Source of the DNA: an uncultured Psychroflexus sp.
Lineage (GTDB): Bacteria > Bacteroidota > Bacteroidia > Flavobacteriales > Flavobacteriaceae
Reading direction: 5' to 3'
Assembly: GCA_913062845.1 (NCBI GenBank)
Contig: CAJXVZ010000025.1
Coordinates: forward strand, 1 to 42,265
Length of the DNA stretch: 42,265 bases
This document shows, in pieces, positions 767 to 26,128 of the stretch. A program made the position numbers and the translations under genes. The first letter of the stretch is position 1; each line of letters opens with the position of its first letter. The notes beneath the pieces are model-generated. The model was not told where the DNA came from. It searched no databases and saw only the letters and a list, made by a program, of their open reading frames with translations.

Positions 767-774
767 TATATTTG
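767..774 (+). promoter_or_regulatory. -7 promoter box of the tRNA-Val(UAC) locus
   Basis: TATATTTG fits the Bacteroidota -7 consensus TAnnTTTG. It lies upstream of the two palindrome-bearing 5' half copies, so a transcript starting near 781 would carry both of them as a leader before the intact tRNA. No clear -33 TTG box is seen. Confidence 0.5.
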
Positions 775-786
775 CATCCGCGATTG

Positions 787-900
787 ATAAGCGTAGCTAT
801 TTCGATAGTTATCGAAATAGTTTGAGTATCTATAGAAAAGTGCGGGTGCGTAGCTCTCCCGATAGTTATCGGGATGGTTTAGAGCATCATAAGAAAGTGC
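787..900 (+). repeat. Two tandem 57-bp partial copies of the tRNA-Val(UAC) 5' half with palindromes in the D-loop
   Basis: The block GCGTAGCT occurs at 791, 848 and 905, giving two exact 57-bp steps ending in the intact tRNA. Copy 2 (844-900) begins like the tRNA (GGGTGCGTAGCTC), then has TCCCGATAGTTATCGGGA (857-874) in place of three D-loop bases, and resumes as TGGTTTAGAGCAT. It then leaves the tRNA sequence before the anticodon and ends ATAAGAAAGTGC. Copy 1 (787-843) has the same plan but has drifted; its palindrome is ATTTCGATAGTTATCGAAAT (799-818). Neither copy can fold as a tRNA. The origin is unknown; see findings. Confidence 0.85.
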
Positions 901-975
901 GGGTGCGTAGCTCAGTTGGTTTAGAGCATCTGGTTTACACCCAGAAGGTCAGGGGTTCGAATCCCTTCGCACCCA
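901..975 (+). tRNA. tRNA-Val(UAC)
   Basis: A complete 75-nt cloverleaf. The acceptor stem is GGGTGCG/CGCACCC with discriminator A975. The D-arm is GCTC..GAGC, the anticodon stem TCTGG/CCAGA with loop TTTACAC (anticodon UAC, reading GUN valine codons), and the T-arm AGGGG-TTCGAAT-CCCTT. CCA is not encoded. It is the intact member of an array, with two 5' half copies upstream and two 3' end copies downstream. Confidence 0.97.
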
Positions 976-978
976 CAA

Positions 979-1004
979 GCCCAAACCTTGGTTTGGGTTT
1001 TTTT
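979..1004 (+). terminator. Rho-independent terminator after tRNA-Val(UAC)
   Basis: Stem CCCAAAC (980-986) / GTTTGGG (991-997) with a 4-nt loop, followed by seven T. Near-identical hairpins recur at 1101-1125, 1231-1255 and 1339-1365, each directly after a tRNA-Val 3' end or a copy of one. Confidence 0.85.
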
Positions 1005-1255
1005 GTAAGTGAGAGGTAAAATAAGTTCATTTGGTTTGTGGAAATGAGAGTTTTGGAGTCAGGGGTTCCCCCGAAGCTTCGGGGCCTTCGCACCCACAAG
1101 CCCAAACTTAGGTTTGGGTTTTTTTGTAAGAGAGATAAAATAAGTTCATTTGGTTTGTGGAAATGAGAGTTTTGGAGTCAGGGGTTCTCCCGATCCCGAA
1201 GTTTCGGGACGGGACCTTCGCACCCACAAGCCCAAACTTAGGTTTGGGTTTTTTT
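1005..1255 (+). repeat. Two tandem copies of tRNA-Val(UAC) 3' end plus terminator, with palindromes replacing the T-loop
   Basis: Each unit holds a spacer (containing AAAATAAGTTCATTTGG), the tRNA-like TCAGGGGTT, a palindrome in place of the six T-loop bases CGAATC, then CCTTCGCACCCACA and the terminator hairpin (1101-1125 and 1231-1255). The palindrome in unit 1 is CCCCGAAGCTTCGGGG (1069-1084). In unit 2 it is a nested element at 1188-1214. The spacer loosely resembles the D-arm of the tRNA (AGTTCATTTGGTTT against AGCTCAGTTGGTTT), so each unit may be a decayed full tRNA copy. No coding is expected. Confidence 0.85.
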
Positions 1256-1260
1256 ATCCC

Positions 1261-1335
1261 GGGTCATTAACTCAGTTGGTTTAGAGTGTTACCTTGACAG
1301 GGTAGAAGTCACTGGTTCGAATCCAGTATGACCCA
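1261..1335 (+). tRNA. tRNA-Val(GAC)
   Basis: A complete 75-nt cloverleaf. The acceptor stem is GGGTCAT/ATGACCC with discriminator A1335, D-arm ACTC..GAGT, anticodon stem TTACC/GGTAG with loop TTGACAG (anticodon GAC), and T-arm ACTGG-TTCGAAT-CCAGT. CCA is not encoded. It begins only five bases after the T-run of the preceding terminator and has no visible promoter, so its expression seems to need read-through. Confidence 0.96.
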
Positions 1336-1338
1336 CAA

Positions 1339-1365
1339 GCCCAAACTTAGGTTTGGGCTTTTTTT
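1339..1365 (+). terminator. Terminator after tRNA-Val(GAC)
   Basis: Perfect 8-bp stem GCCCAAAC (1339-1346) / GTTTGGGC (1351-1358) with loop TTAG, then seven T. It is the best-paired of the four related hairpins in this locus. Confidence 0.9.
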
Positions 1366-1376
1366 ATGTAAAAAAA

Positions 1377-1433
1377 TAGAAGTCACTGGTTCTCCCGATC
1401 CCGAAGTTTCGGGACGGGACAGTATGACCCACA
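1377..1433 (+). repeat. Partial 3' copy of tRNA-Val(GAC) with a nested palindrome in the T-loop
   Basis: TAGAAGTCACTGGTT and CAGTATGACCCA match the 3' part of tRNA-Val(GAC) exactly, but the T-loop bases CGAATC are replaced by a nested palindrome (1393-1419). That palindrome is base-for-base identical to the one at 1188-1214 in the UAC copy. Outer arms are TCCCG/CGGGA and the inner element is TCCCGAAGTTTCGGGA. Unlike the UAC copies, no copy of the tRNA terminator follows; a different hairpin does. Confidence 0.85.
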
Positions 1434-1441
1434 TCAAGCAG

Positions 1442-1475
1442 AATCCCAATATCGGTAGATATTGGGATTTTTATT
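1442..1475 (+). terminator. Strong hairpin terminator closing the tRNA-Val locus
   Basis: Twelve-bp perfect stem AATCCCAATATC / GATATTGGGATT with loop GGTA, followed by a T-rich tract. Confidence 0.7.
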
Positions 1476-1785
1476 TGGGAAAACTTAAAAGCATAGCTTT
1501 TAAAAGTTTGGACAAATAAAAATCCTATAAAACTGCGTTAGCAGTTTTGGGATTCTATTTGCAGGAGCGGGCTTCAATTCTGGATCAACGTCAGTTAATC
1601 CTAGAGCTATTCATAGAACTCCGAAACAATCCCGACAGCATTTGGGACGGAATGACGGTGTAATAGGCCTTGGCATTTTAGGATTTCTGTTTCCCGGAGT
1701 GGCCTCCATTTCAGAAAAACTATAGTCAATCATTCCATTCATTGGTAGTCTTTATATTACTATGGCTATCAAACAAAATGAATTT
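1476..1785. other. Gene-free stretch with several inverted repeats
   Basis: No convincing gene. It contains a hairpin AAAACTGC-GTTA-GCAGTTTT at 1529-1548, with outer arms AATCC/GGATT. There is also a degraded palindrome-like piece around 1629-1650 (TCCCGACAGCATTTGGGACG), and an imperfect stem TTTCTG..CAGAAA around 1693-1727. These look like worn relatives of the palindromic elements in the neighbouring tRNA locus. Confidence 0.4.
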
Positions 1786-2214
1786 TCATTCAGTCCAATA
1801 ATCAAATACTAACGGTGGTCCGGCCAATAGACTTTTAAGCTGTCTGCGAACTTTGGCATGATGCTCGTTTTTATCATATTTTTTCAGGTCATCTAAACTT
1901 TTAAATGTGACATGAAGCGCAAGGTCATAGTTTTTGTATAATCTTGTGTCACCGGTTTCTGCTTTTTGTCCGGCATAAAGTTTAACGACATTATCAATTG
2001 CGCTTAAGCTTTTTAGTTGTTCTATAGCTTTTATCTTATCATCTGCAGAAACGTTGTCTTTTAGATCTAAGAAAACATTATGTATTAGTAATTTGTATTG
2101 TGAACCCGTTTTAATGTTACTGGCCACATTTTCCTTAGGTTTCTTTTCATTCTGCAGACATCCGGTAAATAAAAAAAGACTAAACGCTAAATAAAATATG
2201 ATTGAAGTTTTCAT
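1786..2214 (-). CDS. Dabb-family (stress-responsive alpha/beta-barrel) lipoprotein
   Basis: 142 residues. The N-terminus is a lipoprotein signal, with a hydrophobic run followed by LFTGC (lipobox Cys19), so it is probably anchored in a membrane facing the periplasm. From about residue 42 the pattern YKLLIHNVFLDLKD...ADDKIKAIEQLKSL...DLALHVTFKSLDDLKKYDKNEHHAKV matches the Dabb domain, a small dimeric ferredoxin-like barrel with a conserved late histidine pair. The function of this family is poorly defined. It is transcribed divergently from the glycerate kinase with only about 55 bp between starts, so a shared control region is possible. The call is firm at domain level only. Confidence 0.8.
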   Translation of the reverse strand: MKTSIIFYLAFSLFLFTGCLQNEKKPKENVASNIKTGSQYKLLIHNVFLDLKDNVSADDKIKAIEQLKSLSAIDNVVKLYAGQKAETGDTRLYKNYDLALHVTFKSLDDLKKYDKNEHHAKVRRQLKSLLAGPPLVFDYWTE

Positions 2215-2269
2215 TTTGATTGTATTAATTTTGATAACAGCTCCAAATTAATTTATTTTTTTGAGTTTA

Positions 2270-3517
2270 ATGAAAAAGTGTATAAATATATTTTGTGTTC
2301 CCGATAAGATGAAAGGCACACTCAAAGCGGGTGAGATATGCGATATTTTTAAACAAGAAGCAGAAAATAACATTTATCAAAATGCTAACGGAGAAAGAAT
2401 AGTTTTCAAGACCTCTACACTGGCAATGGCTGATGGAGGTGATGGATCTGTAGAAGCCCTAAGTAAGAGGTTACATTTGAATAAGGTCAGACTTACAGTG
2501 AACGGACCTTTTATGCAGCCTGTAGCTTCATATTACGCTATCGACTTACAAGGCAACGCGTATATAGAAATGGCTTCTGCTGTCGGTCTGGTTATGATAC
2601 CTACGGAAAAAAGAAATTGCATGCAGACTTCCAGTTATGGTTTTGGAGAGTTAATACAACATGCCATAGGCAATGGTTCAAAAAAGATATATTTATGCCT
2701 GGGAGGCAGCTCAACCTCTGATGCCGGAATAGGCATGGCAACTGCTTTGGGTTTTCAGTTTTTAGACAAGCAAGGTCAAAAAGTACAACCCGTAGGTGGT
2801 AAAATGAAGCATATTGCTCAATTTGTGACGTCTGAAAACATTGAACAAATTAGAGCTACGGATTTCGTAAGTTTGTATGATGTAAATAATCCAATCCTTG
2901 GAAAAAATGGTGCAGCACCTGCATTTGCTCCACAAAAAGGTGCAAACAAAACAGAAGTAAAAATTCTCGAGCAAGGTTTAGAAAGGGTAGTAAAGCTTAT
3001 GCTTACTGACACTGACTTTTATAAAAAACAACATCCACATGGAACTAAGATTGACGAGCTAATTGAATTAGAAGGTGGTGGAGCGGCCGGAGGAATGGGT
3101 TTGGGGACTCATTTTTTTCTGGGTGCAGAACTTAAATCCGGAGCGTCTGAAATCATGAATCTTATATCTTTTGAAGATAAATTAGACGAGTGTGATGTCT
3201 TTATAACTGCTGAAGGGCAATTAGATGGAAGTACCATCAATGGAAAAGTTCCTTTTGAGGTGAGCAGGAAAGCAAATGACAAAAATTTACCTTGTTATGT
3301 AATTTGTGGAAAAAACAGCCTGACTGAACATCAAAAAAAAACTTTTGGTGCCCGTGCATATTACAGCTTAATTGAATTAGTCGGAGAGGAAAAAGCTTTA
3401 CAAGAGCCTGAATATGCTCTGAGGCGTGTCGTTCAAGATATGTTGAAAGATATTGCCTGTATCTATGGCCAGAGCAGCAGGTTCTTAAATATAAAAGCCC
3501 GTTCCAAAAGCGATTGA
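2270..3517 (+). CDS. glxK: Glycerate 2-kinase (GlxK/GarK family)
   Basis: The family phosphorylates D-glycerate with ATP to a phosphoglycerate that enters glycolysis. The N-terminus INIFCVPDKMKGTL corresponds to the family's PDxFKGSL motif. MADGGDGSVEAL, LCLGGSSTSDAGIGMATALGF near residue 150, and ITAEGQLDGST near 315 are further family blocks. I chose ATG 2270 (415 aa) over an in-frame TTG at 2261, which only adds three residues. The last codons lie inside a terminator stem. No glyoxylate or tartronate genes are adjacent, so the glycerate source is not shown by context. Confidence 0.9.
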   Translation: MKKCINIFCVPDKMKGTLKAGEICDIFKQEAENNIYQNANGERIVFKTSTLAMADGGDGSVEALSKRLHLNKVRLTVNGPFMQPVASYYAIDLQGNAYIEMASAVGLVMIPTEKRNCMQTSSYGFGELIQHAIGNGSKKIYLCLGGSSTSDAGIGMATALGFQFLDKQGQKVQPVGGKMKHIAQFVTSENIEQIRATDFVSLYDVNNPILGKNGAAPAFAPQKGANKTEVKILEQGLERVVKLMLTDTDFYKKQHPHGTKIDELIELEGGGAAGGMGLGTHFFLGAELKSGASEIMNLISFEDKLDECDVFITAEGQLDGSTINGKVPFEVSRKANDKNLPCYVICGKNSLTEHQKKTFGARAYYSLIELVGEEKALQEPEYALRRVVQDMLKDIACIYGQSSRFLNIKARSKSD

Positions 3518-3530
3518 AACGGGCTTTTAA
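3493..3530 (+). terminator. Terminator overlapping the 3' end of the glycerate kinase gene
   Basis: Stem AAAAGCCCGTT (3493-3503) / AACGGGCTTTT (3518-3528). The left arm and loop are coding and the right arm starts just after the TGA stop (3515-3517). The arms carry A and T tracts, so it could work in both directions. Confidence 0.75.
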
Positions 3531-3543
3531 TCTTCATAATAGT

Positions 3544-3723
3544 TTAGAATAATCTGGAAATAGCAAGTGATCTGAAGAGCGTATCAAAAACATTTGGTTT
3601 TTGCGATCTTTCGTCATTTGATGTTTTTATTTCAGCAACTTCTATTTGTTCGATTTGTTTTTTTCTTTTTTCTTGTAAATGCTTTAATTCGTTGGGATTG
3701 GCCCACATTATAGGTGAATACAT
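3544..3723 (-). CDS. Small hypothetical protein (59 aa)
   Basis: A short open frame, ATG at 3723 to TAA at 3544. The product begins MYSPIMWANPNELKHLQEK, has a charged central helix (KRKKQIEQIEVAEIK) and ends FDTLFRSLAISRLF. It has no signal peptide or membrane segment and no motif I recognise. The codon pattern looks coding, and it sits tail-to-tail with the glycerate kinase behind a terminator. The start is preceded by an A/T-rich leader with no Shine-Dalgarno, as is common in this phylum. It could be a chance frame. Confidence 0.4.
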   Translation of the reverse strand: MYSPIMWANPNELKHLQEKRKKQIEQIEVAEIKTSNDERSQKPNVFDTLFRSLAISRLF

Positions 3724-4175
3724 AATTTTAAAATTTTGGGTTAAAAATGGATTAGAATTAATCGTGCAATTGGTTATTGCTTACAAGCTTCATGTGTCGG
3801 TGAAGCTTTTCTTAAGTCAATGAAATCAGTTTGTATTTAATCTCGACATTTCATTTATAAATTTTAATTCAATTTTACGCTGCAATATTACTATCTTTTC
3901 ACATACCTGACATGAAATTAGCATTCATTTAGTGTTAAATATGCGAATACGGTGTTGTATTTCAAACGTTTACGTAAAAATTGAAAAACGTTGTAGTAAT
4001 TTTTAAGTATCTGAAAAACAAAACATTAGAAAATTTAACATTGAAATTTTTTAAATCCACTTTTTTATTGGAAAATTTTAATTGTTTTAACAAAATTAAA
4101 TAGAAAATCACCGCATTTTTCGAGATAATCACGAATATTTTATGACATAAAAGCCTGGAAAGATTCAATTAAAGA
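3724..4175. other. AT-rich intergenic region
   Basis: About 450 bp of very AT-rich sequence. I see no RNA gene, repeat or convincing coding frame; a 68-codon frame on the minus strand (3962-4168) is Phe/Lys/Asn-rich in the way AT-rich noise is. Confidence 0.5.
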
Positions 4176-5699
4176 TTAGCTTCTTTTCAACTGATAGACA
4201 TCTTCTCTTCGGTCTTTGAGGTTTCTGACACTTCCGAAATTGTGTAATTCAGTAAGATCATCCAGATTAACATCGGCAATGAGAATCATTTCAGTGTTTG
4301 GCGTAGTTTCTGCTTTTATGCCATTGCTGGGAAAGGCAAAATCTGAAGGCGTAAAGACTGCCGACTGTGCATATTGTATATCCATATTGTGCACTTTTGG
4401 CAGGTTGCCCACACTGCCGGCAATGGCTACATAACATTCATTTTCTACAGCTCTGGCCTGGGCGCAAAGCTTCACTCTTGAAAAACCATTTTGAGTATCA
4501 GTCAAAAAGGGAACAAACAAAATATTCATACCTTCTAAAGCTAAAAGCCTGGACAATTCAGGGAATTCTACATCATAACAGATCAGAATGCCAATCTTTC
4601 CGCAGTCGGTATCAAATGTTTTTAGCATATTTCCGCGCTGCATTCCCCAGACTTTGGCTTCATCCGGTGTGACATGTATTTTCTCGAATCGTTCAACTTC
4701 GCCATCGCGTTTGCACAAACAACCCACATTAAATAATTTTCCGTCGATAACTTCAGGCATACTTCCCGAAATGATGTTGATATTGTAGGCAATGGATAAT
4801 GCTCTGAATTTATCTTTAATGGGTAGTGTATATTTTGCCAGTTCTCTTATCGCTTCAGGCTCACTGAGGTGGTTGTATTTGGCCATAAGTGGTGCATTGA
4901 AGAATTCCGGAAACAAAGCGAAATCAGAACGGTAACCAGATAGTGACTGGACAAAGTATTCCACCTGGTGCAATAACTCATCCAAATCATTATAGGGCCT
5001 CATTTGCCATTGCACAAGGCCTAAGCGAATCTCAGTCTTTGAGGAAGAAAGTTCTTTGGAATCCTTTTCATAATAAATGTTATCCCATTGCATCCATACC
5101 GCATATTCTTTGGAATCTTTATCACCTTCTAGGTAGTTGGAAAGAATTCGAACAGGTCTGAAATCATTCGACAGCTGAAAGTTTAGTACAGGATCTATTA
5201 TATCTTTACGTCTGACCTTTTGAATATATTGTCTGGGCGTAAGTTCCGATGCATGCTTGTAATAGTTAGGGATTCGACCTCCAAATACAATACCTTTGAG
5301 ATTTAGTTTTTCACACAGGTCTTTCCTGTAATCGTAAAGTCTTCTTCCAAGTTTTAACCCACGATAGGATTTTTTTATCAAAATGTCTATGCCATAAAGC
5401 ATGTCGCCGGTGGCTTCATGCATTTCAAATTTTGAATCGCCGGCTATATCATCATAAGTATGCTTTTTGTCAATTTTTGAAGATTGAACTATAAGTGCAA
5501 AAGCACAACCTGCAATTTCACCATTGACGTACAATACAACCTGCCCTTCAGGAAATTTGTTGATGAGCTCTCTGAGCTCACTCTTTTTCCAATAAGCATC
5601 AGGTGCATCGCCATATATTTCAATAAATACATCTTTCAGGGCTTCAAAATCTGTGAGTGAAAGGTATTTGAGCTCTAAATTTTCAATATTATTCTTCAT
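4176..5699 (-). CDS. GNAT acetyltransferase / nitrilase-superfamily hydrolase fusion
   Basis: 507 residues in two domains. Residues about 8-160 form a GNAT fold, with the acetyl-CoA loop near SYRGLKLGRRLYDY (111-124). Residues about 223-500 form a carbon-nitrogen hydrolase with the full catalytic triad: Glu265 in LFPEFF, Lys340 in RFEKIHVTPDE and Cys374 in ILICYDVEFPE. This architecture is a recognised family (GNAT/carbon-nitrogen hydrolase) in Bacteroidota and other phyla. The hydrolase half cleaves an amide or nitrile C-N bond, but the substrate is not evident. It is a cytoplasmic protein with no signal peptide. The gene stands alone between AT-rich spacers, with a bidirectional terminator upstream at 5797-5831. 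Confidence 0.9.
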   Translation of the reverse strand: MKNNIENLELKYLSLTDFEALKDVFIEIYGDAPDAYWKKSELRELINKFPEGQVVLYVNGEIAGCAFALIVQSSKIDKKHTYDDIAGDSKFEMHEATGDMLYGIDILIKKSYRGLKLGRRLYDYRKDLCEKLNLKGIVFGGRIPNYYKHASELTPRQYIQKVRRKDIIDPVLNFQLSNDFRPVRILSNYLEGDKDSKEYAVWMQWDNIYYEKDSKELSSSKTEIRLGLVQWQMRPYNDLDELLHQVEYFVQSLSGYRSDFALFPEFFNAPLMAKYNHLSEPEAIRELAKYTLPIKDKFRALSIAYNINIISGSMPEVIDGKLFNVGCLCKRDGEVERFEKIHVTPDEAKVWGMQRGNMLKTFDTDCGKIGILICYDVEFPELSRLLALEGMNILFVPFLTDTQNGFSRVKLCAQARAVENECYVAIAGSVGNLPKVHNMDIQYAQSAVFTPSDFAFPSNGIKAETTPNTEMILIADVNLDDLTELHNFGSVRNLKDRREDVYQLKRS

Positions 5700-5796
5700 G
5701 ATTAAACATCAATTTACAAAAACTCAATATAAAATAAGAATGCGAGAATTTATCTAAATTCTGAAAATATATTCATTGTAGCTGAGTTTCTGATAT

Positions 5797-5831
5797 AAAA
5801 AAGTCTGATATCCATGATATCAGACTTTTTT
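5797..5831 (-). terminator. Bidirectional-type terminator after the flavin reductase gene
   Basis: Perfect stem GTCTGATATC (5803-5812) / GATATCAGAC (5816-5825) with a 3-nt loop, flanked by A6 and T6. It ends the minus-strand flavin reductase transcript. Confidence 0.85.
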
Positions 5832-5849
5832 CATTTTTATTCTTTAGGA

Positions 5850-6350
5850 CTAAATTTCAGCTTTTTCCTTGGAATACTCAATAGGTATATGTGCTGTGCA
5901 AATAGGCTCTTTATCGTTTTCAAGAACTTCATCAATCACTTCACCAAAATATATGGTGTGGTCACCAATGTTTTCGCTTTTTAAGACTTTACAGGTGACA
6001 TGCCCAATCGTATTTTCTATAATAGCTTCACCATTTTTCTTGTTGAATGGCACACCGTTTATTTTCCCTTCTTCAATTGTTGACTTTTCTGCAAAGGTCT
6101 TGATGTAATCCTGATGTTCTGTGGATAAAACATGCAATGTGAAACGTTCACTATAATCAATAGTTTCGTTCAAGTCACTTTGTTGTGCTACTGCCACTGA
6201 AAATATTTTTGGTGAAAAAGAAATCTGTGATACCCAATTCACCGTACCTGCGGCAATATAATCTTTATCTCTGGTCTTTAAATTGTCTGCTTTTTTTAAA
6301 GCTGTGAGGATATAATATCCATACGTAAATTTGTGTGCTAATTTTTCCAT
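5850..6350 (-). CDS. Flavin reductase-like FMN-binding protein
   Basis: 166 residues. The pattern FTYGYYILTALK...DYIAAGTVNWVSQISFSPKIFSVAVAQQSDLNETI...FTLHVLS fits the flavin reductase-like domain (split-barrel FMN-binding fold). Members reduce flavin with NAD(P)H for partner oxygenases, or act as flavoproteins themselves. IGHVTCKVLKSENIGDHTIYFGEVID near residues 114-140 is the usual second half of the fold. It is cytoplasmic. No oxygenase gene is adjacent, so a partner cannot be named. Start ATG 6350 gives normal family length. Confidence 0.85.
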   Translation of the reverse strand: MEKLAHKFTYGYYILTALKKADNLKTRDKDYIAAGTVNWVSQISFSPKIFSVAVAQQSDLNETIDYSERFTLHVLSTEHQDYIKTFAEKSTIEEGKINGVPFNKKNGEAIIENTIGHVTCKVLKSENIGDHTIYFGEVIDEVLENDKEPICTAHIPIEYSKEKAEI

Positions 6351-6851
6351 AATCTATCTTTTTTCTTTTAATATAATAGAAGGTATGCAGAGTAGCTGTT
6401 AAAAAAATGGCAAGATTTGCTAAGTTCTGGTTGTTCAATTTTAATATAGCTTAGGTCGAGCCTCCAAAAATTTTAGCAAATCTTATTTAATGGGTAGTGA
6501 CGTTTAAAATTATTATAGTCAAAAAAATTAGCGTCGGCTCGAGTGGTCCCGACATTTTCGTCGGGATTGTATCGAGAGCTCGCCAATGAATCTCGATAGT
6601 TCTACTGAGCACCGTTGAAGTACAGTTAATTATTTTACCTTTTATGAAGGAAAAATAATTAATCACTCGATTTGACGTAAAGTGTTATATGTAAATACGT
6701 TACGAAAAAACGTCATTAGTCGTGTACCTAAATTAAGTAGTGATTTAGGAGTGACTTCTGTATTTCGATGGTATTAAATCCCCATATATGCTCTGCAGAA
6801 GTAACCACCTAAAACAGGCATAAAATTATTTATTTTCATTATTTTTAATCG
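6351..6851. other. Intergenic region with stacked inverted repeats and a possible tRNA-Ser relic
   Basis: No coding frame. It holds TCCCGAC-ATTTTC-GTCGGGA (6547-6566), then TATCGAGA..TCTCGATA (6570-6598), and a long AT inverted repeat (TTAATTATTTT / AAAATAATTAA, about 6627-6663). The first palindrome is preceded by GGCTCGAGTGGT and followed by GAGCTCGCC, which resemble the D-arm of serine tRNAs. The promoter of the downstream two-gene unit is presumably in the last 100 bp; I see no clear consensus box. Confidence 0.4.
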
Positions 6852-8771: not shown

Positions 8772-9368
8772 ATGGATTGGCTAAACATCTTTAAGTCCAA
8801 AAAAGATTATCCACAATTTTGGATGAACTACTTACAGGAATTTAAGTCAAAAAAGTCTGATGTTTTCGTGGCATTCGATTGTGAGACTACCGGACTTGAT
8901 CCTAAGCAAGACAAAATACTTTCTATAGGAGCAGTAAAGTTTACAGGAGAGAGAATTTTTATTAATGAAAGTAAGGAGTGGTTTGTAAAACAATCCTTCA
9001 ATGTTGATGAAAGTGTAAAAATTCACGGTATTCTGCCTGCTAATTCTTCCAGGGCTTCATTATCAGAGGATGAAGCAGTAAAGGCCTTTCTGAAATTTAT
9101 TGGCAATGCCACATTGATTGGTCATCATGTCAATTTTGATATTTCTATGGTCAATCAAGCCCTTAAAAGACTTGGTGCCGGAAAATTGAAGAATAAGCAA
9201 AAAGATACAAACAGATTATATAAGGATAAAGGACACTTTGCCAATGAGCAGAATTTCAGTCTTGATGATTTGTGTGAGAAATATAAAATTAAAGCTTCTA
9301 ACCGGCATACAGCATTGGGCGATGCCTATATTACTGCTCAGGCTTTTCAAAGACTAATAAATCAGTAA
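8772..9368 (+). CDS. DEDDh 3'-5' exonuclease (DnaQ-like)
   Basis: 198 residues. The three exonuclease motifs are visible: Exo I FDCETTG (Asp36, Glu38), Exo II HHVNFDI, and Exo III HTALGDA with the histidine of the DEDDh class. These coordinate two metal ions that hydrolyse DNA or RNA from the 3' end. It is short and lacks polymerase III epsilon's C-terminal tail, so it is probably a stand-alone proofreading or trimming nuclease. It starts on the base after the stop of the upstream DUF294 gene, forming an operon with it. Confidence 0.88.
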   Translation: MDWLNIFKSKKDYPQFWMNYLQEFKSKKSDVFVAFDCETTGLDPKQDKILSIGAVKFTGERIFINESKEWFVKQSFNVDESVKIHGILPANSSRASLSEDEAVKAFLKFIGNATLIGHHVNFDISMVNQALKRLGAGKLKNKQKDTNRLYKDKGHFANEQNFSLDDLCEKYKIKASNRHTALGDAYITAQAFQRLINQ

Positions 9369-9373
9369 AATCA

Positions 9374-10783
9374 ATGAAATACTTATTAAAATTTTCGATA
9401 CTTCTCCTGGTTTTATCATGCAGTAAACCCAAGTCGCTGCCACAACACATTGAAGATGAAATTGAAAGAAGGGTGGATTCAGAGATCAATCCAAGCGTAT
9501 CAATTGGCTTTCTGAATGCAGATGGCACCATGAGATTTTACAATTATATGCATGCAGATCTTGAAATACAGCCAGACCAAAATACACTATATGAGATAGG
9601 CTCAATAACAAAGACCTTTACTGCAAACCTGGCAAATCAGTATCTCAAAGAGGATATGTACAAGCCTGTTGGAGATTTTTTTCCGTCACTGCAAAACAAA
9701 GTTTTAGACAGTCTGAGCGTGCAAGAGCTAAAAAATCACACTTCTGGTGTACCAAGACTTTCCGAAGGCTTTTCACCAGAGGATTGGTCAGATCCTTTTA
9801 ATGGCTACAATGATGAGTCCATCTATGAGGATTTGGAGTCATTAAAGCTTACAGAAAAAGATCAATGGGCCTACTCTAACTTAGGTTACAGTATTCTGGG
9901 CAAGATTATCGAAAACAAGACTAAATCAAATTTTGAAAAATTGATGGGAGCTTTGCTCGACGACGCTCAAATGAACAAAACATTTTTGAGCCATAAAATG
10001 GCCGAAACCTCTCATCTTGTAAGACCCTACAACGTCGGTACAGAAAACAGCTACTGGCATTTTACAGGTCCGAGTCGATATGCAGGCGGTCTTATCAGTT
10101 GTACAGCAGATATGTTGAAATATTTAAAATTTCAAAAGGAAAATAATCCTCTTTTTCAAACAGAAGAACCTGAGGATTTAATTCAGACCAATGTACCCAA
10201 TTTAGGTGATGGTAAATTATTCTATGCCGATGGATGGTTCGTTTTAAAAGAAAGTCAAGATAATAACATATTGCTCCACAATGGTGGTACAGGTGGCTTT
10301 ATATCATTTGTAGGATTTAATTTAAAAACACAACAAGGTGTAGTGGTCTTAGCAAGTGGGCTTGAGGTAATTGATGATATAGGATTAAGTCTGATCTATC
10401 CTGATTTTGAATTGAACAAACCTGAGAGAAGCATAGCTTATGAAATTGCAAATTTGATTGAAGAAGGCAAAACAGAACACTTACAAAAAGCTTACAATAA
10501 ATTTTTAGAAAAAGGTCAGAAAGAAGACATTCTGGATATTTATTGGTTAGAACGCTTTCATTTTGGTAAGAGCAATTATGAGGTCAGCCATCAGTTGAGT
10601 GATATTATGGTAGAGATGTTGCCGGACGATTGGGAAGTCTACGATATTAAAGGTCAAAATCTGGAAAAGAAAGGCCAATACAATAAAGCTATTGAGGCCT
10701 ATCAGAAAGCAAAATCGCTCAATCCCGATGCTGTTCATTTAGACAAAAAGATCGAGCGATGCTTTGATCAGGTAAATCAATGA
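9374..10783 (+). CDS. Serine beta-lactamase-like hydrolase lipoprotein with C-terminal TPR
   Basis: 469 residues. The signal ends LLVLSC (lipobox Cys16). The class C beta-lactamase/DD-peptidase fold carries SITK (Ser77, Lys80), YSN (Tyr167-Asn169) and HNGG at 302, in place of the classical KTG. After about residue 380 there is a helical region with a TPR unit near the end (YDIKGQNLEKKGQYNKAIEAYQKAKSLNP). Enzymes of this fold include penicillin-binding esterases and peptidases; true beta-lactamase activity cannot be claimed. It lies 5 bp after the exonuclease gene on the same strand and is probably co-transcribed. Confidence 0.88.
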   Translation: MKYLLKFSILLLVLSCSKPKSLPQHIEDEIERRVDSEINPSVSIGFLNADGTMRFYNYMHADLEIQPDQNTLYEIGSITKTFTANLANQYLKEDMYKPVGDFFPSLQNKVLDSLSVQELKNHTSGVPRLSEGFSPEDWSDPFNGYNDESIYEDLESLKLTEKDQWAYSNLGYSILGKIIENKTKSNFEKLMGALLDDAQMNKTFLSHKMAETSHLVRPYNVGTENSYWHFTGPSRYAGGLISCTADMLKYLKFQKENNPLFQTEEPEDLIQTNVPNLGDGKLFYADGWFVLKESQDNNILLHNGGTGGFISFVGFNLKTQQGVVVLASGLEVIDDIGLSLIYPDFELNKPERSIAYEIANLIEEGKTEHLQKAYNKFLEKGQKEDILDIYWLERFHFGKSNYEVSHQLSDIMVEMLPDDWEVYDIKGQNLEKKGQYNKAIEAYQKAKSLNPDAVHLDKKIERCFDQVNQ

Positions 10784-10830
10784 GGTATATTGTTATACTG
10801 GTTTGATTTTTATCATCATAAGGTTGCTTT

Positions 10831-13203
10831 TTAAAACAAAAGGCTTACGCCAAAAAGAAAATTAGTCCCTGCCTGAGGATAATAGCCTGCACCTCCAAAG
10901 GTAGTTGTGTTTCCTGCTTCATCAGGAGCATCAAAGGTGAAAAAGTACCCATTCGATTCAAATTCAGCGTTAAAAATGTTATTGATCAAGCCTGTAAAAC
11001 GTATTTCATCGAAAAATGAAACATCCTTTAAGCTGTATACCAGATTGAGGTCATTGACAAAAAATGCATCTAAAATAGATGATTCAAAATCAATATTGCC
11101 CATATATTGCTTACCAACATATTTGCTTAAAAAATTGATTTGAAAATCAGGAGTCGCTTGATAGGTCAATTGATTGCCGGCAATAAAATCCGGTGAATAC
11201 GAGATATTTGTATTGCCCAGGTTAACAAGTTCACCGTTTATGGGTGCAATAAAATCTATATTTCTGTTTTCGCTTATAGCAATATTAGGTTGTACGCGCC
11301 ATTTTTTACTGAGTAAAATATCTGCTTCAACTTCAAGACCGAGACGATAAGACTCACCACTGGTCTGTCTTATAGGGTTACCAACATCATCCAATGCACC
11401 AGATAGCACCAACTGATCGTTGTAAAGCATATAATAGATGTTGGCATTTACTTTGGTTTTTGGCGTATTAAAACGCCATCCAAATTCAAAGTCGTCTAAT
11501 CTTTCTGCTTTTGTAATGTCATTTTCAAAATCCTGTCTGCGTGGTTCCCGATGTGCTCTACCATAGGATAAATACAGTTGATGGTTTTGGTTTGCTCTGT
11601 AGGTTACGCCGGCTTTAGGGTTAAAAAACTCAAAGTTTTCATTTACAATAAGGTTCACTTTGTCCGAAGTTAATCCGCTCATCTCAAAATTCACAAATCT
11701 TCCCTGGAGGTCCAAATAAGCTTGCCATTTGTTATTAATTCTCCATGTGGCTTTTGCAAATGTGGTAAACTCTTTTTTGGTGCCATTACCGCTGTAATAT
11801 CTGTCTCTTATCAGGCTGTTACCTGCAAAACGTGACCAAATGACTTCGCCAAAATGATCCCCGTCATACAAGCTGTAAAAAGCACCAGCTGTGAAGTCTA
11901 ATTTATTGTCAGTATAATTGACATTCGCATTGACGACATAATAATCATTATCCAACCATCTTCGGCGTACAAGGTCTGAGGACGCTATACTTTCTCCTCC
12001 GATTTCAATTGGGCCAATCTCGTGAAAGCTCAAATCTGCATCTTCTACAAATTGCTCAAAATAACCACGGCCATAGGTATAATTAAGGCTTAGGTTTGAT
12101 GACCAGTTCTTATTAAATTTTTCATTCCAGTGCAACTGATAATGATCTTGGGAATAATTGTCTACTTCATTATCGTAAAATTGAAGATTGCCATTTTGGT
12201 CAGTAAATGCACCGGCAGGATTGAAGGTTCTGTCGTTTTCCAGTGTTTCACGATCTACCCCAAACCAGGATTGGTAGGTGACTTCATTACCGCCAAAAGC
12301 CAGTGCTTTTATCAAAGTGTTTTCATCTACGTAGTTGGCCTGAAGAAAATAAGATTTAAGGTCTGCTGATGCCCTGTCTACGTATCCGTCTGATGAGATT
12401 CTGGATAATCTTCCAGATACTTCAAAGTGATTGTTCATCAGGCCGGTGCTGAATTTTACATTGTTTCGCCAGGTGTTGAAAGAGCCAAAGCTGGAGTTGA
12501 TCTCTGCCGATGATTCTTTTTGAAATTTATCGGTCAGTATATTCAGACTGGCTCCGAATGCCCCTGAGCCGTTAGTTGAGGTTCCCACACCACGTTGCAG
12601 CTGAATGTTTTCTGTTGAAGAAGCAAAGTCCTGTAGGTTCACCCAAAATGTACCCTGACTTTCCTGGTCATTGTAAGGAATACCATTTATAGTCACATTC
12701 ACTCTGGAATTGTCGCTACCTCTTACCCGAATAGAAGTATATCCAATGCCATTTCCGGCATCTGAAGTAGATACCACAGAAGGCAGATAATTCATCAAAA
12801 TGGGAATATCCTGTCCGAGATTTCTTTTTTGAATTTCTTCTTTAGTAAAGTTTGAATGGGTAATAGGAGAGTCTGCATTCACTCTTACGCCCTGCACAGA
12901 GACTTCATTCAAAGATTCTACAGCCTCAACCAGATCAACGTTTATGGTTTGAGACTCGGTCAATTGGATCTTAATGGTTTTTTTATTGCCGAAGGCATAA
13001 ACGACTTCGTAATTGCCTTTAGACAGGTCTAATTCATAATCACCGTTGGCATCGGTCGTAGTTGAAATATTGGAATTTTTGACGTAAACCAAAGCGCCTT
13101 CAACAGGCATTTTGTCCTGTGTGACCTTTCCGTCCAGTGTAAAGTTTTGAGCATAAAATACACTCGAGATACAAAATGTAATTGTAAATAATAAAGTTTT
13201 CAT
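10831..13203 (-). CDS. TonB-dependent outer-membrane receptor under TPP control (probable thiamin-compound uptake)
   Basis: 790 residues with a signal peptide. A carboxypeptidase-D-like regulatory domain (about 20-100; FTLDGKVTQDKMPVEGALVYV) is followed by a plug domain (about 110-225; IRVRGSDNSRVNVTINGIPYND) and a beta-barrel ending in an aromatic residue (FGVSLLF). The leader contains a TPP riboswitch, so the gene is repressed when thiamin pyrophosphate is plentiful. TPP-regulated outer-membrane receptors are a recognised thiamin-uptake class in Bacteroidota, which gives the likely substrate. No inner-membrane transporter or thi gene follows; the next gene downstream is convergent, so the receptor is a single-gene transcription unit. 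Confidence 0.9.
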   Translation of the reverse strand: MKTLLFTITFCISSVFYAQNFTLDGKVTQDKMPVEGALVYVKNSNISTTTDANGDYELDLSKGNYEVVYAFGNKKTIKIQLTESQTINVDLVEAVESLNEVSVQGVRVNADSPITHSNFTKEEIQKRNLGQDIPILMNYLPSVVSTSDAGNGIGYTSIRVRGSDNSRVNVTINGIPYNDQESQGTFWVNLQDFASSTENIQLQRGVGTSTNGSGAFGASLNILTDKFQKESSAEINSSFGSFNTWRNNVKFSTGLMNNHFEVSGRLSRISSDGYVDRASADLKSYFLQANYVDENTLIKALAFGGNEVTYQSWFGVDRETLENDRTFNPAGAFTDQNGNLQFYDNEVDNYSQDHYQLHWNEKFNKNWSSNLSLNYTYGRGYFEQFVEDADLSFHEIGPIEIGGESIASSDLVRRRWLDNDYYVVNANVNYTDNKLDFTAGAFYSLYDGDHFGEVIWSRFAGNSLIRDRYYSGNGTKKEFTTFAKATWRINNKWQAYLDLQGRFVNFEMSGLTSDKVNLIVNENFEFFNPKAGVTYRANQNHQLYLSYGRAHREPRRQDFENDITKAERLDDFEFGWRFNTPKTKVNANIYYMLYNDQLVLSGALDDVGNPIRQTSGESYRLGLEVEADILLSKKWRVQPNIAISENRNIDFIAPINGELVNLGNTNISYSPDFIAGNQLTYQATPDFQINFLSKYVGKQYMGNIDFESSILDAFFVNDLNLVYSLKDVSFFDEIRFTGLINNIFNAEFESNGYFFTFDAPDEAGNTTTFGGAGYYPQAGTNFLFGVSLLF

Positions 13204-13263
13204 TCGTAATTTTTTTTTACGAATAAAAGGGGCTATTATTCTGGTTAATAAAAGTTTAAAATT

Positions 13264-13293
13264 AAAAATCCTGAGTGCTCTAAAGCATCAGGA
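13264..13293 (-). terminator. Rho-independent terminator forming the TPP riboswitch expression platform
   Basis: On the minus strand, TCCTGA-TGCT / AGCA-c-TCAGGA followed by TTTTT, about 60 nt before the receptor start. It lies just downstream of the aptamer. An intervening hairpin (ACAAGATAA..TTATCTTG) uses the 3' strand of P1, giving an obvious switch between aptamer and alternative pairing. Confidence 0.75.
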
Positions 13294-13297
13294 GTAA

Positions 13298-13411
13298 TAC
13301 ATCAAGATAAAACTTATCTTGTTTTCCCTTGGCAACATTACTTGCCCAGGTTCATTGGGTATAATCTCAGTCTCCATACATGACGTACTTCAACACCCCC
13401 TTTGAGATAAT
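13298..13411 (-). promoter_or_regulatory. TPP riboswitch (thi-box)
   Basis: The minus strand shows the thi-box landmarks in order: TCAAAGGGGGTG, an extended P3 arm, CTGAGATTATACCC, GAACCTG, TAATGTTGCCAAGGGAA, and closing P1 pairing TTATCT/AGATAA. These are the TPP-binding core elements. The aptamer sits between a TACCTTTG promoter box and a terminator ahead of the TonB receptor gene, so binding of TPP should cause early termination. Confidence 0.95.
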
Positions 13412-13412
13412 G

Positions 13413-13420
13413 CAAAGGTA
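13413..13420 (-). promoter_or_regulatory. -7 promoter box upstream of the TPP riboswitch
   Basis: Minus strand TACCTTTG (TAnnTTTG), with TTG 20 nt further upstream, an excellent fit to the Bacteroidota sigma-A promoter. Transcription would start almost at the first base of aptamer P1. Confidence 0.75.
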
Positions 13421-13506
13421 AAAGGAATTTGGGGAAACGCAAGAAGAAAACACAATAGATGTCATTTTTATAGTCTCATTTAACTTGTTACATCAAAATT
13501 TGTTTT

Positions 13507-13527
13507 TTGTAAAAAGCATTTTTACAA
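13507..13527 (+). promoter_or_regulatory. Candidate palindromic operator upstream of the AAA ATPase gene
   Basis: TTGTAAAAA-GCA-TTTTTACAA has perfect 9-bp arms. It lies 26 bp upstream of the -7 box, about where a -33 element would be, and is followed by a second TGTAAAA half-like motif at 13530. A 12-bp direct repeat ATAAACAATTAT (13541 and 13570) flanks the promoter. I infer a repressor or regulator site. Confidence 0.45.
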
Positions 13528-13552
13528 TATGTAAAATGTGATAAACAATTAT

Positions 13553-13560
13553 TATATTTG
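13553..13560 (+). promoter_or_regulatory. -7 promoter box of the AAA ATPase gene
   Basis: TATATTTG, 20 bp before the ATG at 13580, between the two copies of the ATAAACAATTAT direct repeat. Confidence 0.6.
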
Positions 13561-13579
13561 TTTTCTATAATAAACAATT

Positions 13580-14761
13580 ATGCAGTCTCTTATTCAAAAA
13601 TCTGATCGAAAATTAAAACAATTAAATTTCAAGCACCGAAGAGCATCGTTTAGTGAAATAGATTGGAATGACAGACTAATATTATTATTAGGTCATAGAG
13701 GAACAGGAAAAACAAGCTTGCTACTTCAACATTTAAAATCTATAAATGGAAAAGGCATTTATTTAAGTTTAGACGATTTTGTTTTTGAAGACCAACGCCT
13801 TATAGTCATTTTTGAAAAACTATATCAACAGGGTTATAGGCATTTTTATTTAGACGAAGTACATCGATACCAATATTGGTCAAAAGATTTAAAACAATTG
13901 TACGATGATTATAATGATGTCAAGCTTATAGCCACGGGATCTTCTATTCTGGATGTTAATAAAGGTAATGCAGACTTATCACGACGAGCTGTTAGTTACC
14001 GAATACAGGGATTATCCTTTCGTGAGTATTTGTTTATAGAGAAAGATATTGTTTTACCACCGCTTTCAATTCATCAAATAATAGAAGACCATCATCGTAT
14101 TTCCAGCGACTATTTAGATCATTTTTCTTGGGAAAAAGATTTTAGAAACTACCTGGAATACGGATACTATCCATTTTTTAAGGAAAATAAAAAAACATAC
14201 TTTATTAAGCTTGAAAAAACAGCGCAACTAGTTATCGAAAGTGACATTGTCCCTTTTGAAGGTTTAAATTATAAAAGTATTCACAGTTTAAAGAAATTAC
14301 TTTTTGTTATCAGTCAGTCTGTTCCTTTTATTCCAAATATTAGTAAACTGGCAATAACATTAGATATCTCAAGAAATAGTCTATTGAAATTACTTGATCT
14401 GTTAGACCAGGCAAAACTTGTAAAGTTACTTAGGGCAGATACCAAAGGGGTAAGCTATTTACAAAAACCTGAAAAAGTATATTTAGAAAATACAAACCTT
14501 ATTCATTTGTTTGCACAAGATCAACCAAATATTGGTAGTCTCAGAGAAAGTTTTTATTACAATCAGGTAAGTTACAAACATAAGGTTACATCTTCAAAGT
14601 ATGCCGATTTTATGGTAGATGGGAAATATACATTTGAAATTGGCGGTGCAAACAAAAGTTTAAAACAAATACAGGGCGTACCGGAATCCTTTTTGGCGTT
14701 GGACATAAAGACCGGGCAAAACAAGAATATCCCGTTGTGGTTGTTTGGGTTTTTGTATTGA
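13580..14761 (+). CDS. AAA-14/DUF4143-type ATP-binding protein
   Basis: 393 residues. Walker A is GHRGTGKT (38-45) and Walker B is FYLDEVH (89-95); the arginine/sensor region TGSSILDVNKGNADLSRRA follows. A winged-helix-like middle comes next, then a C-terminal part with SKYADFMVDGKYTFEIGG, resembling the nuclease-like end of DUF4143 proteins. Such ATPases are widespread, patchily distributed and often horizontally moved; their biological role is unsettled. It is a single gene with its own promoter and a possible palindromic operator, next to the tRNA-Leu locus. No antitoxin-like partner is visible. Confidence 0.85.
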   Translation: MQSLIQKSDRKLKQLNFKHRRASFSEIDWNDRLILLLGHRGTGKTSLLLQHLKSINGKGIYLSLDDFVFEDQRLIVIFEKLYQQGYRHFYLDEVHRYQYWSKDLKQLYDDYNDVKLIATGSSILDVNKGNADLSRRAVSYRIQGLSFREYLFIEKDIVLPPLSIHQIIEDHHRISSDYLDHFSWEKDFRNYLEYGYYPFFKENKKTYFIKLEKTAQLVIESDIVPFEGLNYKSIHSLKKLLFVISQSVPFIPNISKLAITLDISRNSLLKLLDLLDQAKLVKLLRADTKGVSYLQKPEKVYLENTNLIHLFAQDQPNIGSLRESFYYNQVSYKHKVTSSKYADFMVDGKYTFEIGGANKSLKQIQGVPESFLALDIKTGQNKNIPLWLFGFLY

Positions 14762-14882
14762 TGGCATTTAGTTTAGACCTTAAAGGTCTCGCGTTCATTG
14801 AGCATAGTCAAAGTGAGACCTGTGATGTATTGAGTGCTAAAAATAAATCTCAAAAATTAATTTTTATTTTCAGGACTTTATT

Positions 14883-14890
14883 TATATTTG
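14883..14890 (+). promoter_or_regulatory. -7 promoter box of the tRNA-Leu locus
   Basis: TATATTTG, as at the tRNA-Val locus. It precedes two palindrome-bearing 5' half copies, which would be transcribed as a leader of more than 200 nt before the intact tRNA. No TTG -33 box is evident. Confidence 0.5.
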
Positions 14891-14926
14891 CAGTCCGAAA
14901 AAAGAAAGTTCTTTTGTTATAATTAA

Positions 14927-15130
14927 GCGAGCGTGGTGGTTCCGATAGTTATCGGGTTGGTAGAAATGCTAGACTTCAAGGAATATTTTGGAGTTGAGTT
15001 TTTGAAAATAGGTTCTTTAATTATAAATGCGGGCGTGATGGTCCCGATAGTTATCGGGATGGTAGACATGCTAGACTTCAAGGAATATTTTGGAGTTGAG
15101 TTTTTGAAAATAGGTTCTTTAATTATAAAT
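14927..15130 (+). repeat. Two tandem 102-bp copies of the tRNA-Leu 5' half with D-loop palindromes
   Basis: The tRNA 5' end occurs at 14927 (GCGAGCG, drifted), 15029 (GCGGGCG) and 15131 (the intact gene): two exact 102-bp steps. In copy B the D-loop AAT is replaced by TCCCGATAGTTATCGGGA (15042-15059), the same palindrome as in the Val copy at 857. Copy A has a drifted form (14941-14956). Each copy follows the tRNA as far as GCTAGACTT, then has the same spacer ending AATTATAAAT. The spacer resembles the leader between promoter and tRNA, so the unit appears to be tRNA 5' half plus leader. Confidence 0.88.
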
Positions 15131-15212
15131 GCGGGCGTGATGGAATTGGTAGACATGCTAGACTTAGGATCTAGTGCTTCACGGCGTAAGAGTTCGAGTC
15201 TCTTCGCCCGCA
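15131..15212 (+). tRNA. tRNA-Leu(UAG)
   Basis: A complete class II cloverleaf of 82 nt. The acceptor stem is GCGGGCG/CGCCCGC with discriminator A15212. The anticodon stem is CTAGA/TCTAG with loop CTTAGGA (anticodon UAG). The variable arm TGCTTCACGGCGTA is long, and the T-arm is AGAG-TTCGAGT-CTCT. CCA is not encoded. It is the only intact member of the array. Confidence 0.96.
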
Positions 15213-15217
15213 CAAAA

Positions 15218-15244
15218 GCCAGCAATTAATTTGCTGGTTTTTTT
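15218..15244 (+). terminator. Terminator after tRNA-Leu
   Basis: CCAGCAA (15219-15225) / TTGCTGG (15231-15237) followed by seven T. A related hairpin (CCAG..CTGG plus T7) follows the 3' copy at about 15597-15622. Confidence 0.88.
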
Positions 15245-15249
15245 GTTAT

Positions 15250-15537
15250 ATGGCATCAGTTTACATTCTTTACTCAAAAATTTCGAATATTTATTATACA
15301 GGTAGTTGCTTAGATTTGGAGCAACGGATCAAAGAACATCGAGAAAAAGCTTATAAAAAAGCTTTTACATCGCAAGCCACAGATTGGGAGTTGTTCTTAA
15401 TTATAGAAAATTTGGATTACAAATGCGCAAGAGCAATTGAGACTCATATCAAAAGAATGAAGAGTAAGGTGTATATTGAAAATTTAAAGAAATATCCAGA
15501 AATCACAGAAAGATTAAAGAATAGATATTGTAAATAA
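15250..15537 (+). CDS. Small GIY-YIG family nuclease inserted at the tRNA-Leu 3' end
   Basis: 95 residues, a lone GIY-YIG domain. The GIY strand is VYIL (4-7) and the YIG strand YYTG (15-18). Arg26 in LEQRIKEH is the catalytic arginine and Glu64 in ARAIETHIKRMKSK the metal-binding glutamate, so the active site looks complete. Relatives include UvrC's N-domain, Slx1 and homing endonucleases such as I-TevI. The ATG comes six bases after the tRNA-Leu terminator and there is no promoter of its own. The gene is flanked on both sides by the tRNA-Leu T-arm plus terminator; the downstream copy carries a palindrome. That placement suggests a mobile or formerly mobile gene using the tRNA as its site. 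Confidence 0.88.
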   Translation: MASVYILYSKISNIYYTGSCLDLEQRIKEHREKAYKKAFTSQATDWELFLIIENLDYKCARAIETHIKRMKSKVYIENLKKYPEITERLKNRYCK

Positions 15538-15553
15538 TTTGAGCTAGAATATT

Positions 15554-15626
15554 GTAAGAGTTCGATAGCTATCTGAACTCTTCGCCCGTGCAAAAGCCAG
15601 TACTTTCCTTGCTGGTTTTTTTGTTA
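15554..15626 (+). repeat. 3' copy of tRNA-Leu T-arm plus terminator with a palindrome in the T-loop
   Basis: GTAAGAGTTCGA and CTCTTCGCCCG match the 3' end of tRNA-Leu, but the loop is expanded to a palindrome at 15558-15580 (GAGTTCGATAGCTATC-t-GAACTC, 11-bp arms with one bulged T). The following AAAAGCCAG..CTGGTTTTTTT repeats the tRNA terminator. With 15188-15244 it forms imperfect direct repeats on either side of the GIY-YIG gene. Confidence 0.85.
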
Positions 15627-25807: not shown

Positions 25808-25969
25808 TTGGGACGTGCGCTGCTAAAAATGATTTAGCAACACATACACATTCGCATAAAACGAAAAGTTGTAATTGGATTTAAAAAAAAATAGGTTGTA
25901 ATACAGTCAGTTGATAATACTGAAAATTCTTGGTAACTAAGGAAATGTAGGTTCTTCATCGCTTATGTT

Positions 25970-26100: not shown

Positions 26101-26128
26101 ATTTGCGATTACTCACAAATTGGAATTA

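Follow-up and report, generated by a model that had tools for sequence, protein, structure and literature searches.

Small GIY-YIG nuclease genes, palindromes and displaced tRNA ends form candidate mobile elements in Psychroflexus and other Bacteroidota

The window analysed here is a 42,265-nucleotide (nt) stretch of DNA from an uncultured Psychroflexus sp. (CAJXVZ010000025.1, positions 1 to 42,265), contig 25 of a 3.37-Mb assembly (GCA_913062845.1) in 155 contigs. Two of its tRNA loci, for Leu (14883-15626) and for Val (767-1433), consist of intact tRNA genes surrounded by partial copies that carry palindromes, and at the Leu locus a gene for a small GIY-YIG nuclease lies among the copies. 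We followed this gene and its palindromes through the genus and the phylum, and found that many Bacteroidota carry what look like one-gene DNA parasites, each made up of a GIY-YIG nuclease gene and a hairpin-forming palindrome.

All features of the two loci lie on the + strand. The Leu array opens with a promoter-like −7 box (TATATTTG, 14883-14890), read from the sequence, and continues with two 5' copies of tRNA-Leu, the first (14927-14976) with an imperfect D-loop palindrome at 14940-14958 and the second (15029-15078) with a D-loop palindrome at 15042-15059. Both D-arm copies are part of a 102-bp tandem repeat upstream of the intact tRNA-Leu(TAG) gene (15131-15213). An open reading frame (ORF) of 95 amino acids (aa) at 15250-15537, a GIY-YIG nuclease of family PF01541, occupies the space between the terminator of this gene and a displaced 3' copy (15554-15591), which has an imperfect T-loop palindrome and is followed by a copied terminator. 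The ORF scores 44.2 bits against PF01541 (curated cut-off 22.6), and the Y, R, H and E columns are invariant in a 13-sequence alignment (A1) that includes the window protein. The PDB relatives of the protein profile are UPF0213 proteins (5.6e-8; the matches include 1zg2 and 1ywl) and, more weakly, SLX1 chains (2.8e-4). No intron was found in the window with Rfam at gathering scores.

The Val locus totals two intact tRNA genes, two D-arm copies upstream and three 3' copies. It starts with the same promoter-like box (TATATTTG, 767-774, read from the sequence); in both arrays we take these boxes to be of the −7 type. The first 5' copy (791-830) contains the palindrome ATTTCGATAGTTATCGAAAT at 799-818, and in the second (844-888) sequence and fold indicate that the D-loop bases are replaced by TCCCGATAGTTATCGGGA at 857-874. 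The intact tRNA-Val(TAC) gene (901-976) and its terminator are followed by a 3' copy (1058-1097) with the T-loop palindrome CCCCGAAGCTTCGGGG at 1069-1084, a second 3' copy (1177-1227) with a nested T-loop palindrome at 1188-1214, the intact tRNA-Val(GAC) gene (1261-1336) and a 3' copy of the latter (1377-1432), again with a nested T-loop palindrome (1393-1419). A preliminary description of this DNA proposed that the two loci share one layout around a single intact tRNA. The order of D-loop copies before and T-loop copies after an intact gene holds at both, but Val has two intact genes; similarly, the palindromes do sit at the D- and T-loops as described, although those at 14940 and 15560 in the Leu copies are imperfect.

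The pattern TCCCGA-N(0-30)-TCGGGA has 36 matches per strand in the whole genome, compared with 1 for the reversed control pattern, so that chance is a poor explanation, as had been argued. When four nested matches are merged there are 32 distinct sites, 14 of them inside displaced tRNA fragments, including the Arg-ACG 5' halves that end contig 21, and three inside structured RNAs: the tmRNA (L018:1347-1745), a cobalamin riboswitch (L062:1133-1456) and a SAM riboswitch. The window's SAM riboswitch (25969-26102, − strand) does have a palindrome, TCCCGAAGTTTCGGGA, in its P3 arm (26029-26044, − strand) as first reported, but this is weak evidence of insertion because the family model has a stretch of variable length in that arm. 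tRNA fragments occur near 19 of the 34 tRNA genes, with a palindrome by the fragment in 13 of 34 according to a script that may have included some other palindrome lying nearby; adding by eye Phe (imperfect), a Ser-TGA 5' copy and Arg-ACG on contig 21 brings the total to about 16 of 34. The genome has 15 PF01541 matches. Five small ones are within 200 nt of a tRNA (Leu, Ser, Met, Asn and Cys), and four of these five sit between the intact tRNA and a fragment; the Cys one is at a contig end. Direct repeats flank four of the five non-tRNA GIY-YIG genes examined (L003, L005, L006 and L013), and none were found round L002. A further palindrome of the window, TCCCGACATTTTCGTCGGGA at 6547-6566, is built like dispersed ones at C1:149341 and C3:69675, and palindromes of this type are a second palindrome family of the genome. 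Contigs C14, C38, C71, C113, C116 and C134 of G000 start or finish at tRNA genes, probably because the repeated halves disrupt assembly.

Among the matches listed, the genus Psychroflexus contains 98 loci with 122 small GIY-YIG domain hits. The scan covered ORFs of up to 260 aa, one gene (L013) is read in two frames and counts twice in the 122, and two more small hits (in G013:C35 and G018:C337) lie outside the set. Thirty-four of the 122 hits are within 200 nt of a tRNA gene, and all 34 are on the strand of the tRNA. At 84 hits the ORF lies between direct repeats of at least 40 bits, compared with 2 of 122 in a control that paired the left flank of one locus with the right flank of another, and such repeats were found at 56 of the 89 hits having just one GIY-YIG domain nearby. 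On the protein tree, from which five of the 122 proteins were left out as too short and three as identical, the target-tRNA labels need 23 changes; the shuffled mean is 38.4, and none of 200 shuffles gave so low a count.

Within each clade the layout is much alike and the spacing between ORF and palindrome is fixed. In the main Asn clade the order is intact tRNA, terminator, ORF, TAGCTCAGTTGGTTAGAG, the palindrome TCCCGCACGTGCGGGA in the anticodon arm, the remainder of the tRNA and a terminator, and in a second Asn-targeting clade the palindrome is in the T-loop instead. The Phe clade has the order ORF, GTCCCTGGTTC, palindrome, CTGGAGGCACC. The Arg-ACG and Arg-TCG clades are the mirror image: a 5' half with its palindrome comes first, then the ORF and, 23 nt beyond it, the intact tRNA. 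A tandem array of eight GIY-YIG ORFs spaced by about 364 bp is present at L166 (G013:C34, 5490-11250); copies of a tRNA-Met-like 3' end and terminator were seen alongside.

Other clades do not target tRNA genes. Inverted repeats of at least 11 nt occur at 41 of the 122 hits (5.3 expected), many of them belonging to dispersed palindrome families; terminal inverted repeats as a general rule were dropped, being clear in one clade only. The members of that clade end in the short inverted repeats ACCTGTGAAAT and ATTTCACAGGT, and some lie inside S23-like genes with no evident target copy and others at the Rossmann motif of epimerase-like genes, with the gene start duplicated. At L130, L140, L151 and L156 such inverted-repeat-ended ORFs break S23-like genes at one common place. 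By their motifs these genes are probably S23-like (four-helix) and epimerase-like. The proposal that the elements target the loops of structured RNAs stands for tRNA loops, but these other clades lie beside or inside protein genes, or within intergenic clusters of palindromes.

The palindrome is maintained. A displaced copy was found at 44 of 55 Phe loci (matching recovered none at the other 11, some of which are truncated by contig ends), and all 44 have a 16-nt palindrome at one T-loop position. Among 20 distinct Phe palindromes, pairs 1 to 6 are paired in every one (with a single T-G). Pair 1 alternates between C-G and T-A, a result that none of 10,000 shuffles equalled, and pair 2 covaries in the same way (p 0.0065), both values being uncorrected for kinship. 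Kept pairing together with covariation indicates that the palindrome is not a random scar.

Several non-tRNA nuclease clades sit in clusters of REP-like repeats. The motif CACTCGAACTGACA has 122 copies in 16 of 27 genomes and TTCGAGCGNAGTCGAGA has 131 copies in 20 of 27, and the reversed control of each has 0 in the 27. In the genomes in which a matching nuclease was located among the copies, 38 of 73 copies of CACTCGAACTGACA (five genomes) and 50 of 79 copies of TTCGAGCGNAGTCGAGA (eight genomes) are within about 1 kb of it. Motifs were picked from clade members, and we asked how often they occur in held-out loci, that is, in loci other than those members and clades other than E, F and Phe. 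The own-clade motif is present in 24 of 42 held-out loci from seven clades and another clade's motif in 5 of 252 cells; 20,000 label shuffles average 4.2 with a maximum of 12, uncorrected for kinship. The nuclease clades have their own targets and palindrome families, much as REP transposases have their REPs.

The same association extends beyond the genus. A scan of a collection with one genome per species turned up 319 relatives, and the best 80 of the 319 gave 79 loci. Fifty-nine of these 79 loci are within 300 nt of a tRNA, all 59 on the strand of the tRNA, and the targets are Phe (50), Leu-TAA (5), Asn (3) and Cys (1). The tRNA-linked loci come from Flavobacteriaceae, Weeksellaceae and Chitinophagaceae, and the occupied tRNA-Phe sites among the 79 span 13 named genera. 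Direct repeats at 40 bits are present in 66 of 79 loci with a high mismatched-flank control (14 of 79), since the tRNA halves are themselves conserved; we therefore rely on the genus and phylum controls. In the phylum sample 38 of 61 genomes have GIY-YIG hits at 1e-12, some being UvrC-size frames. Direct repeats occur in 21 of the 28 newly fetched loci (0.2 expected), and 7 of the 28 adjoin a tRNA, each on its strand. No match was found in phage and plasmid sets by tblastn with one Phe-clade protein. The coupling of palindrome, copy and gene first noted at the duplicated Leu ends holds well outside the window, as does the coupling to flank duplication (84/122 and 21/28 against their controls), and GIY-YIG relatives do associate with tRNA copies or palindromes. 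The original observation is confirmed as real and not limited to the window, and its interpretation is supported in part.

Comparison of orthologous loci revealed empty alleles, rather than palindromes that predate the copies. Within Psychroflexus a GIY-YIG gene lies within 1.2 kb downstream of tRNA-Phe at 8 of 25 loci and downstream of tRNA-Asn at 9 of 24 (2 of 26 loci gave no tRNA-Asn call, L250-L253 were set aside, and some loci end near the tRNA). The Leu site of G011 has the same downstream gene as the window with no copies and no ORF. The tRNA-Asn site is empty in G022 (L235) and occupied in G041 (L236), with flanks that are 92.4% identical upstream and 93.2% downstream (280 nt), and in G041 the native downstream sequence resumes after the outer, palindrome-bearing copy. 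The ORF of L236 is interrupted by another insert, so the count of occupied Asn sites includes one broken gene, and further downstream more DNA differs. L216 was rejected as an empty Phe site; the start of an ORF is present there, marking a decayed element.

Elements at tRNA-Asn have also crossed between genomes. Across 781 nt those of G008 and G001 share 96.9% identity, rising to 100% for about 300 nt spanning the ORF, while their upstream flanks are 77.9% identical; the similarity stops at the end of the element. The middle displaced copy in each matches the host's own tRNA, which is best explained by gene conversion within the array. Between G016 and G041 the element together with about 180 nt of flank is 92-93% identical, and the upstream flank 72.8%. 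The displaced copy of G016 ends GAGGAGGAGC, although its host tRNA ends GAGGGGGAGC; the cassette is foreign and the intact tRNA native. At L241 the tRNA is native and the inner terminator foreign-like. The alignments show two tRNA-Asn elements that have moved between species. The suggestion of mobility is borne out for the GIY-YIG cassette with its displaced target fragment, but a palindrome alone was not caught moving.

Inner and outer terminators at Phe loci match each other better than they match the best other locus in 26 of 44 cases and less well in 11 of 44 (mean identity 0.89). Local duplication at each insertion was at first favoured to explain such matching inner and outer ends, and was weakened by L230/L239, where a host-type middle copy between near-identical ORFs is best explained by gene conversion. 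Acceptor stems of tRNA-Asn vary among the species of the genus (TCCTCC or TCCCCC at L228-L231, some with a G-T pair). This variation could mark past conversion by element copies.

We think it likely that these are mobile GIY-YIG/palindrome elements whose cassette moves between strains and species at one tRNA locus. The cassette consists of a nuclease ORF some 300 bp long, 10-18 nt of the target, a palindrome in place of the loop bases, the remaining end of the target, and a terminator or leader. It sits beside an intact copy of the target, which is therefore not lost. From where similarity begins and ends, we infer that the cassette moves by homologous recombination through the target segment that it carries: a circle or fragment of ORF, partial target, palindrome and target's end would recombine into the end of the target and leave one target intact. 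Such a reaction would account for the direct repeats, arrays, empty sites and restored tRNA. The reverse recombination would excise the element, the direct repeats would permit amplification into tandem arrays like those observed, and decay could leave palindrome-bearing tRNA halves as at the Val locus, one half-decayed element having been seen. The SLX1-like protein, a putative nuclease, would drive movement by acting either on the palindrome cognate to it or on the loop of the target, and so starting recombination; a first invasion of each new target would also belong to this scheme. SLX1 is described in PMC9071465 and PMC8287910 as a nuclease of branched DNA, and kinship with UPF0213 and SLX1 together with the match between clade and palindrome makes the palindrome, as a hairpin or cruciform, the more probable substrate. 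The chances seem evenly balanced that the elements constitute a new minimal class of Bacteroidota mobile element, in which a single-domain GIY-YIG nuclease has its own palindrome family, some lineages specialise on one tRNA gene and keep that gene whole, and the dispersed palindromes, those of the tmRNA and riboswitches included, are non-autonomous copies.

Several observations weigh against the mobile-element interpretation. Just two between-species transfers have been worked out, and genus labels on the tree of named loci (1 of the 79 proteins being too short) need 21 changes, close to the least possible (18) and below the shuffled mean (33.0), so that inheritance may be largely vertical with exceptions. 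In the genus, 38 of the 122 hits lack direct repeats at 40 bits, and many tRNA fragments have no nuclease gene nearby. The exact clade motif is missing from the flanks of 2 of 8 clade-A (CACTCGAACTGACA) and 1 of 8 clade-B (TTCGAGCGNAGTCGAGA) loci, and the chosen motif is present in just 3 of 10 clade-C and 1 of 5 clade-E loci. The 5' copies at Val and Leu, which have no ORF between them, are not explained step by step.

Classical homing, in which the enzyme cuts an empty tRNA allele in the loop, break repair copies the cassette and the palindrome prevents recutting of the displaced copy, is a possible but rather doubtful alternative. It fits the free-standing gene at the same allelic site in each clade, the single palindrome position per clade, the roughly 180 nt of flank taken along in the between-species transfer, and the shared design of fungal mitochondrial elements (PMC3630166). 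It predicts an occupied allele without an intact target, and in a comparison confined to the tRNAs themselves we found identical intact sequences in both occupied and empty genomes, with no sequence protection of the intact tRNA seen between the two. The gene stays cleavable, and a nuclease that cut it would cut its own host, which makes plain homing doubtful. The intact tRNA of G016, moreover, keeps a native acceptor end despite the foreign cassette.

Passive accumulation is improbable. On that account the palindromes would be common dispersed repeats, tandem duplication would have produced the partial tRNAs, and GIY-YIG genes would hitchhike in recombination-prone spots. Palindrome families do occur dispersed without the gene, tandem arrays suggest unequal exchange, and the clustering of genus labels on the protein tree is as it would predict. 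Clade-specific pairing of the nuclease with target and palindrome, the uniform strand orientation (34/34 and 59/59) and the fixed ORF-palindrome spacing all argue against it.

It is very unlikely that the palindromes are REPs of RAYT (Y1) transposases with only a secondary link to GIY-YIG genes. Three Y1_Tnp genes are present in the genome. A lone palindrome with a similar core, CCCGAGG..CCTCGGG, accompanies L333, and the palindromes at the remaining two differ in sequence; as TCCCGA..TCGGGA lies beside none of the three, this origin was rejected. The Y1 (RAYT-like) gene at L335 in the same genome was seen to have its own palindromes, CTTCGAAGTCACAGACTTCGAAG and GTGCGAAGTTTATAACTTCGCAC. That integrase-type islands with attachment sites in tRNA ends left the fragments is highly improbable. 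Partial tRNA copies are a known mark of such integration (PMC9897764), but each unit here spans a few hundred bp, most of it taken up by the GIY-YIG ORF in those that have one, the palindromes replace loop bases, and 5' halves lie upstream as well as 3' halves downstream. The units read at the Leu and Asn loci show a GIY-YIG ORF only, in a reading that included no integrase family search.

Elements of this kind would provide a specific candidate for the agent that spreads palindromic repeats through Bacteroidota genomes, a candidate reason for the broken copies round their tRNA genes, and a case in which a selfish gene can inhabit an essential gene without splicing. They also open the role of small multi-copy GIY-YIG proteins to direct test, and nucleases with defined targets might be obtained from each tRNA-specific clade. 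We found no account of the element in the literature searched, which lay outside bioRxiv and included few subscription papers; the terms Bacteroid, Cytophaga and palindrom gave no hit in PMC1564403, which surveyed GIY-YIG nucleases in 2006.

Three known systems invite comparison. Like UPF0213 and SLX1, the protein is a single small catalytic domain; unlike them, it is multi-copy, target-linked and, on the reading favoured here, mobile. According to PMC3630166, fungal mitochondrial mobile ORFs (in atp6, atp9, cox2 and nad3) duplicate the ends of protein genes, combine a single endonuclease ORF (of GIY-YIG type in atp9) with a duplicate of the target's end, and are likewise proposed to transfer between species. 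The order expected of them, with the target's displaced native end after the ORF, is what L236 shows against the empty L235. They occupy mitochondrial protein genes and bring in a foreign end, whereas the elements described here occupy bacterial tRNA genes and some protein genes, with mostly host-like copies, a palindrome in the displaced copy, versions at the 5' as well as the 3' end, and clades linked to palindrome families. REPtrons, as portrayed in PMC8266576, pair a Y1 transposase (TnpA-REP/RAYT) with REP palindromes. As there, the gene for a DNA-cleaving enzyme lies amid cognate palindromes that are also dispersed, and the enzyme group matches the palindrome family; this was found for CACTCGAACTGACA, TTCGAGCGNAGTCGAGA and the clades of the held-out test. 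The REPtron enzyme is an HUH/Y1 transposase and the enzyme here a PF01541 GIY-YIG nuclease, the Y1 genes lying elsewhere, and target-gene fragments, direct repeats of tens to hundreds of bp and tRNA targeting also set the present elements apart. The element combines features of the fungal mobile ORFs and of the REP/RAYT pair and fits neither definition in full.

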